From NCBI GenBank assembly GCA_002840405.1, contig PHAR01000009.1, forward strand, positions 62,001 to 126,000: DNA of 64,000 nucleotides, written 5' to 3'. Below are positions 39,336-42,678 of this stretch, in pieces; the first letter of the stretch is position 1; each line of letters opens with the position of its first letter. The notes under the pieces are model-generated. The model searched no databases and was not told where the DNA came from. It worked only from the letters and a program-made list of their open reading frames with translations. Source of the DNA: Deltaproteobacteria bacterium HGW-Deltaproteobacteria-8. Lineage in GTDB: Bacteria; Desulfobacterota; Desulfovibrionia; Desulfovibrionales; Desulfovibrionaceae. The position numbers were made by a program, and so were the translations under genes.

Positions 39336-40310
39336 TCAGACGAAGAAATCGCGCACGTACTTGAGGGCCAAAAACACAATGAGGATGGAGAGCATCCACT
39401 TGATATAGCGCGCCGGCACATGCTTCTGGCAGCGCGCACCCAGGTACATGCCTGCCATGCCGCCGATGCCGAAGAGGAAACCCAGAAGCCAGTCCGGGGC
39501 GATGGACATGCTCGGGTAGAAGGGCGCGATGGACTGGTAGAAGGCCACGCCGGCGATGGAGGTGATGAAGGTGCCCATGAGCGCCGCCCCGGCCACGGTG
39601 TATACCGGCAGGCCGAAGAAGGACACGAAGAAGGGCGCGATGATGGCCCCGCCGCCGATGCCGTAGACCCCGCCCACGATGCCCACGATGAAGCTCAGGG
39701 ACAGGATGCCGAAGGTCGGCACCTCGTAGGTCTCGCCATAGAACTCGTAGGCGATGCGGGTGGTGGTGAAGCGCACCACGCGCACGGATTCCAGCTTCTC
39801 GCCAACGGCCTCGCTCTGCTTGGCCTTCTCGCGGAAGCGCGCCACCTGCTCCTGGAAGCGCTTCTCCGCAGCCTGGGCCGAGGTGAGCCCGGTCGGATTC
39901 TTGGGGCCCCGCAACTGCTTGATGAGGTCCTTGGCCATGCGCACCCCGATGTACAGGAGCACCATTGCGGCGAAGAGCTTGAAGTTCTTGGCATCCGGCA
40001 GGTACTGCACGCGGACGATGGCCCCGATGAACACGCCGGGCAGCGTGCCCACGATGACCACCCAGGTCAGCGGCCAGACCATGCGGCCTTCCTTGATGTA
40101 GCGCCAGACGCCGCTCGGGATGGCCACAATGTTGTAGAACTGGTTGGTGGAGCTCACCGAGGGGTTGACGTAGCCGAGCACGCTCATCTGGAAGGGCAGG
40201 AGCAGAAACGCCCCGGACACCCCGCCCATGGACGTGAAGAAGGAGATGACCAGCGACACCAGCGGCGGAACCCAGGGCTGAACCTCAATGCCTGCGACGG
40301 TAAAGAGCAT
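39336..40310 (-). CDS. TSUP (TauE/SafE) family anion exporter
   Basis: A 324-residue membrane protein with the two repeated halves of the TauE/SafE fold (SFFTSMGGVSGAFLLLPFQM in the first and FIVGIVGGVYGIGGGAIIAPFF in the second) and about 75 hydrophilic residues between them. TSUP proteins move sulfite, sulfoacetate, taurine-derived or other anions. Here the divergent neighbour is a TunR-type regulator; in sulfate reducers one branch of that family represses TSUP genes that are thought to export or exclude tungstate and molybdate. A 28-bp inverted repeat lies 52 bases upstream of the ATG. CAGGAGG gives the ribosome binding site. The physiological substrate is inferred. Confidence 0.88.
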   Translation of the reverse strand: MLFTVAGIEVQPWVPPLVSLVISFFTSMGGVSGAFLLLPFQMSVLGYVNPSVSSTNQFYNIVAIPSGVWRYIKEGRMVWPLTWVVIVGTLPGVFIGAIVRVQYLPDAKNFKLFAAMVLLYIGVRMAKDLIKQLRGPKNPTGLTSAQAAEKRFQEQVARFREKAKQSEAVGEKLESVRVVRFTTTRIAYEFYGETYEVPTFGILSLSFIVGIVGGVYGIGGGAIIAPFFVSFFGLPVYTVAGAALMGTFITSIAGVAFYQSIAPFYPSMSIAPDWLLGFLFGIGGMAGMYLGARCQKHVPARYIKWMLSILIVFLALKYVRDFFV

Positions 40311-40361
40311 GGCGGCCTCCTGTGTGGCGGGCCTGGCCTCGCGCCTCCCGCCTTGGATTGC

Positions 40362-40389
40362 TGTCACGAAATATACAATTTGCGTGAGA
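40362..40389. promoter_or_regulatory. Candidate TunR operator
   Basis: An imperfect inverted repeat of 28 bp: TGTCACGAAATA (40362-40373), a 4-base spacer and ATTTGCGTGAGA (40378-40389). Eight of twelve arm positions are symmetric, centred on TCACG/CGTGA. The size and two-arm layout fit the roughly 30-bp sites reported for TunR proteins and the arm geometry of Xer recombinase sites. On the minus strand a TATATT lies within it, so a bound protein would block the TSUP promoter. Confidence 0.6.
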
Positions 40390-40458
40390 CAAAAATACCG
40401 CCTGTCAACAGAAATGTCACCATCTTTTTTACCAGCGCTGCAGATTTTTCGCCACCCC

Positions 40459-40487
40459 TTGGCAGCAGCCGGGTTTGGCCGTATGCT
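40459..40487 (+). promoter_or_regulatory. Promoter of tunR
   Basis: TTGGCA (40459-40464) and TATGCT (40482-40487) are 17 bases apart, 53 bases upstream of the tunR start. This is a good sigma-70-type pair found by eye. Confidence 0.5.
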
Positions 40488-40540
40488 GGGGCTGATAATA
40501 CGCGCCAAAAGGCGCGCCGCAAGACGAAACGGAGGGTCGG

Positions 40541-41611
40541 ATGGGCAAGACGGCACGACACGGCGCAACCGCGACACCCGGCCAGGGCCAACGCGGCCTG
40601 GAGCCGGCACAGCTCTCCGCCCTGGAGCAGGCCTTCCGGGACTGGGTTGCCGCCTCGCGCCGCCAGGCCGACCGCCTCTCGCGCCAACGGCTGTGGCTCA
40701 TCTTTCTGCTGCTGCGCTCCACCGGCGCGCGCCTGGGCGAGGTCCTGGCCCTGGACCCCGGCCGCGACCTGGACCTTGAGCCGACGCGGACCCTGGTCCG
40801 GTTCCGGTCAAACGGCGGGGACCGCGAGGTGCCCCTGCCGGCCGACGTGGCCGAGGAGCTGCGCGTCGCCCTGGCCGACCCGGCCCTGCTGGGCAGCCTG
40901 GGGGACGACCTGTCTCGGCTCTTCGACATGGACCAGGGCCACGTGCGCCGCAAATTCTACGAGCGCGCGCTGGAAGCGGGCATCCCGCGCGAGCTGGCCA
41001 GCCCCAGCGTGCTCCGGCGTTCCCTGGCGCGCAAGCTGGTGCGCCAGGACGTGCCCCTGCCCGTGGTCCAGCGCATGCTCGGCCAGTCCTCGGCCAACCT
41101 GACCGCCGCCTTCTGCGACTACTCCGAGGACGAGGCCGGGCTTATCGTGGAGGAGTACCTGAGGCGCGAGGAGCGGCGCAAGACCAGCGCGCGCAACCGT
41201 TTCGCCGGGCAGATCACGCGGGTCCTGCGCGGACCCGTTGTCAGCGAGATCGAGCTGACCAGCCTGGGCGGCTTCAAGGTCTACAGCGTGGTCACCCTGG
41301 ACTCCGTGGAGCGCCTGGGCATCCGGCCCGGGGTGCTGGCCACGGCGGACATCAAGGCCCCCTGGGTGCAGGTCACGGCCGGAGCCGACGAGCCGGTGTG
41401 CACCGCCGCCAACCGCTATCCGGGCGTGGTGCGCCGGGTGCTGGCCCACGCGGACGAGCCTGTGGCCGCAGAGGTGGTGGCCGAGCTGGCCGACGGCACG
41501 CGCATGGCCGCCGTCATCACCGCCGAGAGCGCGCGCCGCCTGGGCCTCAAGGAAGGCGCGCCGGTGTGGGTCTCCTTTGGGGCGTTCTCGGTCATTTTGA
41601 ACTTCGGCTGA
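40541..41611 (+). CDS. tunR: TunR-type oxyanion-responsive regulator: recombinase fold fused to two TOBE domains
   Basis: A 356-residue protein. Residues 25-195 have the tyrosine-recombinase (XerC/XerD) catalytic fold, but the active site is dismantled. Arg64 (TGARLGE) and Arg159 remain, while the box II His positions are Ser156 and Arg160, the LGHSS His is Gln182, and the nucleophilic Tyr position is Phe191. Residues about 208-270 and 287-356 are two TOBE/Mop domains (SLGGFKVYSVVTLDSVERL and DGTRMAAVITAESARRLGL), the molybdate/tungstate-binding modules of ModE. This is the TunR architecture known from sulfate-reducing bacteria: a transcription factor descended from a site-specific recombinase. 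It is divergent from a TSUP exporter, which it probably represses. CGGAGG lies before the ATG. Confidence 0.88.
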   Translation: MGKTARHGATATPGQGQRGLEPAQLSALEQAFRDWVAASRRQADRLSRQRLWLIFLLLRSTGARLGEVLALDPGRDLDLEPTRTLVRFRSNGGDREVPLPADVAEELRVALADPALLGSLGDDLSRLFDMDQGHVRRKFYERALEAGIPRELASPSVLRRSLARKLVRQDVPLPVVQRMLGQSSANLTAAFCDYSEDEAGLIVEEYLRREERRKTSARNRFAGQITRVLRGPVVSEIELTSLGGFKVYSVVTLDSVERLGIRPGVLATADIKAPWVQVTAGADEPVCTAANRYPGVVRRVLAHADEPVAAEVVAELADGTRMAAVITAESARRLGLKEGAPVWVSFGAFSVILNFG

Positions 41612-41637: not shown

Positions 41638-42678
41638 ATGGTCGAGGGAAACACCCACGAGGCACGGCTCTGGAAGCCACTCAAGGACAATGTCGCCCAG
41701 TGCCGCCTGTGCAGCCATTTCTGCATCATCGACCCCGGAGCGCGCGGCAAGTGCGGCGTGCGCGAGAATCGCCAAGGCACGCTTTTCACCCTGGTCTACG
41801 GCCTGCCAGCAGCGGTCAACGTGGACCCGGTGGAGAAGAAGCCGCTGTACCATTTCCTGCCCGGCACGCGCACCTTCTCGCTGGGCACCATGGGCTGCAA
41901 CATGAGCTGCACCTTCTGCCAGAACGCCTCGCTCTCGCAGCCCCCGCGCCTGGGCGGGCGCATCACCGGGCATCTGGCCTCCCCGGCCGATCTGGTGGCC
42001 GCAGCCCTGGACAGCGGCTGCCAGAGCATCTCCTACACCTACTCCGAGCCCACCATCTTCTTCGAGCTGGTGGAGGACACGGCGCGCCTGGCGCAGGCCC
42101 GTGGCCTCAAGAACATCCTGGTGACCAACGGGTTCATGAGCCCGGACTGCCTGGACGCCCTGGGTCCGGCCCCTTCGGGGCTCATCCAGGCCGCCAACGT
42201 TGACTTGAAGGCCTTCAGCGAAGGCTTCTACCAGGAGCGCTGCGGGGCCAGGCTCGCGCCGGTGCTGGCCAACCTCAAGCACATGCGCGGGCTCGGCTGG
42301 TGGATCGAGGTCACCACCCTGCTCATCCCCGGGTTGAACGACGCCCCGGCCGAGCTGGCGGACCTGGCCGCCTTCATCAGCACAGAGCTGGGGCCGGACA
42401 CGCCCTGGCACCTCTCGCGCTTCCACCCGGACTACAAGCTCACGGACCGGCCCGTGACCCCGCACGAGACGCTGCTGGCCGCGCGGCAGGCCGGGCGCGA
42501 CGCCGGCCTGCGCTTCGTGTACATCGGCAACGCCTCCGGCCCAGGCTTCGGCGACACCTTCTGCCCGGCCTGCCAGGCCGTGGTCGTGAGCCGCGAGGGT
42601 TTTCAGGCCAAGGACGGCGGGCTGCTGAACGGGGCGTGCAGGGCCTGCGGCCAGGGCCTGCCCGGGGTCTGGGCCTGA
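41638..42678 (+). CDS. amrS: AmmeMemoRadiSam-system radical SAM enzyme
   Basis: A 346-residue radical SAM enzyme. The 4Fe-4S motif is CNMSCTFC (CxxxCxxC) in GTMGCNMSCTFCQNASLSQ. A characteristic Cys-rich N-terminal segment (CRLCSHFCIIDPGARGKCGVR) precedes it, and a CPAC/CRAC pair sits near the C-terminus. The family is similar to pyruvate-formate-lyase activating enzymes, and in many genomes AmrS is found with the AMMECR1 and Memo proteins; neither partner is next to it here. The function of the system is not established, and glycyl-radical activation is a homology-based guess. GGGGAGG precedes the ATG. It starts 26 bases after tunR. Confidence 0.88.
   Translation: MVEGNTHEARLWKPLKDNVAQCRLCSHFCIIDPGARGKCGVRENRQGTLFTLVYGLPAAVNVDPVEKKPLYHFLPGTRTFSLGTMGCNMSCTFCQNASLSQPPRLGGRITGHLASPADLVAAALDSGCQSISYTYSEPTIFFELVEDTARLAQARGLKNILVTNGFMSPDCLDALGPAPSGLIQAANVDLKAFSEGFYQERCGARLAPVLANLKHMRGLGWWIEVTTLLIPGLNDAPAELADLAAFISTELGPDTPWHLSRFHPDYKLTDRPVTPHETLLAARQAGRDAGLRFVYIGNASGPGFGDTFCPACQAVVVSREGFQAKDGGLLNGACRACGQGLPGVWA

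Follow-up and report, generated by a model that had tools for sequence, protein, structure and literature searches.

Organization of the tunR locus

The window, by which we mean the whole 64-kb stretch of DNA that was analysed, carries a gene for a predicted transcriptional regulator, tunR, and a divergently oriented gene for a TSUP-family membrane transporter, with a predicted operator and the putative promoters of both genes in the intergenic region between them. From left to right the features are:

39336..40310, minus strand: TSUP (TauE/SafE) membrane transporter, 324 aa, PF01925, divergent from tunR
40362..40389, no strand assigned: predicted TunR operator, a TGTCACG-N14-CGTGAGA dyad, from conservation and matrix score
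40392..40397, minus strand: putative TSUP -10 element, TATTTT, ending 2 bp before the operator
40415..40420, minus strand: putative TSUP -35 element, GTGACA, with a 17-nt spacer; resembles a second half-site (TGTCACC on the plus strand)
40459..40464, plus strand: putative tunR -35 element, TTGGCA, in 14 of 14 congeneric loci aligned
40482..40487, plus strand: putative tunR -10 element, TATGCT, with a 17-nt spacer
40541..41611, plus strand: tunR, 356-aa regulator with an Xer-like domain (residues 50-191) and two Mop/TOBE domains (~213-279 and ~285-353)

A preliminary description of this DNA, made from the sequence alone, had placed a divergent TSUP gene beside the regulator, and the Pfam match bears this out (PF01925, E 1e-37, 130.5 bits against a cut-off of 32.6). 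The ATG of this gene, at 40310, is preceded by AGGAGG, and a sequence search of its product found no solved relative at E<=1. The exporter function given to it in that description is putative. On the other side, a gene for an AmmeMemoRadiSam radical SAM protein (window 41638-42678) starts 26 bp past the tunR stop and may share the tunR transcript.

The TunR protein and its lost catalytic set

The tunR product matches Pfam PF00589 (Phage_integrase) over residues 50-191 (E 7.7e-11), PF03459 (TOBE) in two stretches, and the NCBIfam Mop model (2.5e-28); its matches to Xer-type NCBIfam models fall under their cut-offs, and the domain search gave no match to a core-binding domain. Among solved structures, those closest in sequence are ModG, ModE and further Mop proteins, together with XerA and XerD. 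An AlphaFold model of the protein (mean pLDDT 81, with residues 1-16 and 184-216 under 50) finds its fold matches in the di-Mop domains of ModG and ModE and in XerA, XerH and Cre. An Xer-like domain followed by two TOBE/Mop domains is the architecture of the TunR family, and a palindrome of ~30 bp at the promoter of TSUP or mod genes, the reported length and targets of the published motif, is likewise found here. ModE regulators combine an N-terminal winged helix with a di-Mop region; the di-Mop region is present in this protein, but the N-terminal domain is of the Phage_integrase type. Judged by these matches, the 40541-41611 product is a TunR-type protein, with an Xer-like domain predicted to be catalytically dead and two Mop/TOBE domains, in agreement with the earlier reading of a regulator with a recombinase fold and two TOBE domains. 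A single full-length tunR match was found in the window's own genome, and some congeners (G049:C21, G257:C178 and G287:C2) have a second tunR, ~45% identical to that of the window.

Alignment with XerD places R64 at the first catalytic Arg, S156 at the HxxR His, R159 at the HxxR Arg, Q182 at the second His and F191 at the nucleophile Tyr. The R-K-H-R-H/W-Y set of the tyrosine recombinases is therefore broken in this protein, with Ser at 156 and Phe at 191. The catalytic set had been described at the outset as dismantled, which is true of the window's protein (Phe191, Ser156, Gln182), but comparison of 93 non-duplicate TunR homologues indicates that two of these residues, Phe191 and Gln182, vary by lineage: the 93 have F (36), Y (35), L (14), W (five), H (two) or V (one) at position 191, and at position 182 H in 67 and Q in 23. 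Only the loss of the HxxR His is general, position 156 never being His in any of the 93. Across the same homologues no conserved lysine was found at beta-hairpin positions 88-94. Arg64 and Arg159 had both been regarded as retained; this holds for Arg159 (93/93) but not for position 64, which is R in 72, K in 20 and Q in one, counts from a set that was gathered in part with a pattern admitting only R or K there. Eighty named TunR loci were collected via the peptide patterns TGA[RK]LGEVL and H[VI]RRKF[YQ]E, so that conservation at residues 61-69 and 134-141 is partly selected. In the first Mop domain, R218, T252, S255 and K272, presumably the oxyanion ligands by analogy with ModE, are kept in all 93 homologues.

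A conserved, predicted operator at the TSUP promoter

The inverted repeat TGTCACGAAATATACAATTTGCGTGAGA occupies positions 40362-40389 of the tunR-TSUP intergenic region, with nine of its 14 pairs symmetric, and its TGWCACG half-sites lie 21 bp apart centre to centre, ~two helical turns. A divergent TSUP gene accompanies 58 of the 93 non-duplicate tunR loci, and CACG-N14-CGTG is found in 37 of these 58 intergenic regions, compared with 0.3 expected from shuffles. Other CACG/CGTG spacers between 4 and 30 are found in three (N24), two (N27), one (N20) or none of the regions, with 0.1 to 0.55 in shuffles. An operator matrix scored 18 or more in 56 of the 58 regions (minimum 13.0), against a median of -5.7 and a maximum of 14.4 over 1160 shuffled regions, but this matrix was trained on the regions that it then scored, and a matrix of 55 sites from outside the genus is therefore the cleaner test. 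With the latter, the window's dyad scores 29.3 bits and the next best place in the 64 kb scores 6.0. On these grounds the dyad, which the preliminary description had singled out as a 28-bp inverted repeat between the two genes, is a conserved, predicted operator and not a chance repeat.

The position of the dyad relative to promoter elements is likewise conserved. In 56 of the 58 regions (14-nt window) a -35 element directed towards TSUP, within one mismatch of TTGACA, has its start 28-36 bp ahead of the operator; it is exact in 28, where shuffled sequences gave 3.0 within one mismatch and 0.2 exact; the reverse strand of the same window gave 29 of 58 within one mismatch (through TTGTCA) and no exact match. 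In 45 of 58 regions the best-fitting TSUP -10, a box that is frequently weak, has its end 2-5 bp short of the operator. From the position of the -35 element it follows that the operator would cover the putative TSUP start, which is the geometry of a repressor. In the window, the best-fitting TSUP promoter reads GTGACA (40420-40415), 17 nt, TATTTT (40397-40392), 2 bp, operator. The repeat had also been said to overlap a TATATT; the minus strand does contain this hexamer (AATATA at 40370-40375), but it belongs to the operator core, and it was ruled out as the TSUP -10 given the better-fitting TATTTT/GTGACA pair. The promoter of tunR itself, of the form TTGGCA-N17-TANNNN in all 14 congeneric loci, lies 68-91 bp beyond the operator, and with a distance of about 70 bp direct self-occlusion is unlikely.

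Some loci depart from this arrangement. In 11 loci of other genera (L014-L016, L019, L021, L022, L026, L029, L032, L059 and L079) a strong second dyad lies 55-56 bp from the operator, at the TSUP -35, so that the two stand in tandem. A candidate second dyad 53 bp from the operator was set aside, being in this genus mostly the -35 box. Eleven tunR loci of the Solidesulfovibrio clade (L023-L025, L027, L028, L030, L031, L083, L088, L093 and L098) lack an operator within the 700 bp searched upstream, and several other loci are likewise site-free; one genome of this clade (G103) has a TunR site before modBA elsewhere.

Spread of the family and its other carriers

A TunR homologue at E<=1e-20 is present in 229 of 297 genomes of the order, in which the family can thus hardly be called rare, contrary to the first impression; the tunR loci found include some labelled Nitrospirae and Chloroflexi (metagenome-assembled). 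Among the 35 tunR loci that lack a divergent TSUP gene, eight have a divergent MOT1-type gene and seven a divergent CHR gene with a good site; Pfam confirmed six of the eight MOT1 and six of the seven CHR proteins (all that were tested), the rest being assigned by resemblance. The remainder comprises the 11 loci of the Solidesulfovibrio clade and nine others, some cut by a contig end and two (L103 and L105) with a site. The operator at L105 (3738-3767) is a good one beside tunR with no known carrier adjoining, and the nearest ORF tested resembles an alpha/beta hydrolase.

The promoter arrangement seen at TSUP recurs with the other carriers: a -35 element within one mismatch was found at 11 of 13 MOT1 sites (eight beside tunR and five elsewhere; 20-nt window, shuffled 0.88) and at six of seven CHR sites (20-nt window, shuffled 0.63), and at neither of the two mod sites (20-nt window). 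In a quickly built TunR tree with 93 rows, of which 73 are labelled, carrier type needs at least six changes against a least possible two, and well-supported branches force at least three for CHR.

A profile of 67 tunR-adjacent sites, from which the window's own site was omitted, was run against 120 genomes of the order and identified 21 distinct places, which lie in 17 of the genomes; some of the tunR-adjacent places were training members. The 17 genomes are a low bound, because the stricter filters also missed the window's own site. All 20 places with a locus adjoin TSUP (12), MOT1 (five), modA/modB (two) or a Mop-like ORF (one, E 2.3e-8), and at half of them (10/20) the flanking 1.5 kb to left and right contain no tunR.

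A probable second site at the nif-mod junction

The regulator and its TSUP target had been presented as a self-contained module, a description that a search of the rest of the genome no longer supports. Run against the 3.51-Mb genome at E<=10, the 67-site profile returned the window's operator alone, but at E<=0.3 the same profile recovered only six of 11 known congener operators, plus one further congener match (G297). A genus pattern allowing up to three mismatches matched the operator on both strands and nine other places at 2-3 mismatches, a number level with the ten matches (4+6) of a reversed-pattern control; two earlier patterns gave no matches in this genome. For the genus pattern to detect a site with exact arms, one or more of four ATTT letters must also fit, and the genome may therefore contain more such sites. 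One of the nine, TATCACGCTGTTACAAAAACGCGTGAGT at G000:C3:10125-10151, has exact arms and a matrix score of 17.6, compared with 5.8 or less for the other eight, and was kept because it is conserved across congeners. It lies between nifV-modB-modA-modC-nifA (minus strand) and nifH (plus strand). NifH, NifA, ModA and ModB pass their NCBIfam cut-offs, which NifV misses, and the modC assignment comes from gene position and an ABC_tran match. The site ends 2 bp before TGGCACG-N4-TTGC upstream of nifH, which we take to be a sigma-54-type box. On the same contig (C3:74005-76871), a Pst-like ABC transporter (two permeases, one ATPase) lies beside a 93-aa single-Mop molbindin; the best TunR matrix score across 7 kb of that locus (L124) is -7.5.

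All ten congeneric nifH upstreams compared contain TATCACG-N14-CGTG at this place, and none of 20 from other genera does; the 30 upstreams are the top-ranking loci out of 163 genomes that gave a NifH match, and one more congener match, G049 at a contig end, is not among them. Over the ten congeners the invariant columns are seven of seven in the left arm, two of 14 in the spacer and four of seven in the right arm (CGTG), against a background at the nifH upstream of 30 invariant columns in 151 and a mean pairwise identity of 0.60. Beside the site, modB and modC are found in all ten and modA in six. All 22 exact matches in 341 kb of congeneric DNA fall at the tunR-TSUP or the nif-mod place (same-locus duplicates counted), and shuffled 400-nt nifH upstreams contained the dyad in 2 of 20,000 cases. 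The spacer of the nif site is AT-poorer, and its scores over the ten genomes range from -3.9 to 20.7, under the weakest training site (20.9). Since chance alone would give about 0.4 exact-arm sites in a genome, the case for this site rests on its conservation. With that conservation, and the failure of the profile to recover more than six of the 11 congener operators, a single-site regulon was dropped, and we conclude that TunR in this genus probably binds the nifV-modBAC/nifH dyad, which would tie nitrogenase and/or ModABC expression to Mo/W supply. Most of the ten congeners (L171-L180) also have a conserved inverted repeat, TGTAG-N3-CTACA or near it, at a distance of ~70-90 bp on the upstream side of the dyad.

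A model for TunR action and its alternatives

The best explanation for the locus as a whole, with repression, release and a nif role included, is a TunR-type oxyanion-responsive transcription factor acting with its operator, a reading that we regard as likely. In this model an oxyanion-free TunR dimer would bind the dyad and block initiation at TSUP, tungstate or molybdate on the Mop domains would free the operator from TunR, and TSUP, once expressed, would lower cytoplasmic oxyanion. The outer half-sites may be read by the catalytic-type domain alone, given that no core-binding domain was detected. Bound at the nif junction, TunR would by its position impede nifH under Mo/W scarcity, or could act on nifV-modBAC. 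The sign of the mechanism rests on D. vulgaris, in which tungstate reportedly weakens TunR activation of modABC (Kazakov et al. 2013), and the apo form would thus be the active one. MOT1 proteins are importers in plants, which fits poorly with release by high oxyanion.

The opposite sign, with oxyanion-bound TunR repressing and TSUP (like MOT1) serving as an uptake carrier that is off when Mo/W is plentiful, would suit the annotation of MOT1 as a molybdate transporter and the naming of the TSUP family after uptake, and the operator geometry is compatible with either sign. We nevertheless consider it unlikely, as it runs against the reported D. vulgaris result and against the presence of CHR, a chromate-efflux family, at the same operator in seven loci. 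It is doubtful, too, that the dyad at the nif junction belongs to another nif regulator and resembles TunR half-sites and spacing by coincidence. The different spacer composition, the several low matrix scores and the nearby TGTAG-N3-CTACA repeat, which suggests other regulators at this junction, would favour such a reading; the half-sites of the TSUP operator at the exact 14-bp spacing, present in all ten congeneric nifH upstreams but in none of the 20 from other genera and set beside modB and modC in all ten, argue against it.

That TunR has remained a recombinase with a dif-like target site, regulation being a secondary role, is highly improbable: it would agree with the Xer-like fold and with the Tyr at position 191 in over a third of the homologues (35/93), but not with the universal loss of the HxxR His, the lack of a conserved hairpin Lys, Phe191 in this protein or a site that is fixed relative to promoters. 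Returning to TunR as an oxyanion-responsive repressor, two broader proposals, which we rate jointly as evenly balanced between true and false, extend it beyond the window. Within the genus, including records labelled Humidesulfovibrio, TunR would have been recruited to the nifH/nifV-modBAC junction, with Mo/W setting nitrogenase, the molybdate importer and TSUP together; family-wide, TunR operators would stay in place while TSUP, MOT1 and CHR carriers replaced one another beside them, like plugs in a fixed socket. If this exchange is real, the bacterial MOT1 and CHR proteins at such sites would be Mo/W efflux or overflow carriers.

Relation to known systems

The TunR family is said to have been described by Kazakov et al. 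in 2013 as an Xer-like DNA-binding domain joined to ModE-like Mop domains, with a TSUP target and a ~30-bp site. These are all features of the window's TunR as well, and since the family was already known, the locus is a new member of it. What differs from the family as reported is the conserved nifV-modBAC/nifH site and the divergent MOT1 and CHR carriers; the site at nif-mod may be new, and so may the exchange of carriers. Molybdate and tungstate are needed yet toxic for sulfate reducers, and the analysis predicts a role for TSUP, MOT1 and CHR carriers that otherwise lack an assigned one in these organisms. It also defines, for a repressor that descends from a site-specific recombinase, an exact predicted operator and its position relative to the promoter, and raises the testable question of whether a Mo/W sensor gates nitrogenase transcription in one bacterial genus.

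In full-text literature searches the name TunR came up solely where the 2013 paper is cited or where the letters mean something else, and PMC3944678, PMC10533852, PMC10102598, PMC7774982, PMC5840216, PMC10516654 and PMC6147048 are not among the papers listed as using the word. No link to TunR was found in the portions consulted of the literature on TSUP, MOT1 or CHR with molybdate/tungstate, or on nif. MOT1-type proteins (PF16983) are noted in sulfate reducers in one paper (PMC5840216), and in another MOT1 is counted in eukaryotes only (PMC6147048).

Each half of TunR has counterparts among better-known proteins. The di-Mop sensor is common to TunR, ModG (E 5.6e-16) and ModE (E 2.5e-9), also by fold. 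ModE binds DNA through a winged helix, in contrast to the recombinase-type DNA-binding domain of TunR. The catalytic domain of XerD and XerA is homologous to that of TunR, but the alignment covers the C-terminal domain alone and TunR is without the active-site residues. A tyrosine-recombinase fold also serves as a repressor in MrpR of the SP-beta prophage (PMC10516654). MrpR includes a core-binding domain and retains the Lys and Tyr, whereas in TunR no core-binding domain was detected and a metal-oxyanion sensor is present.
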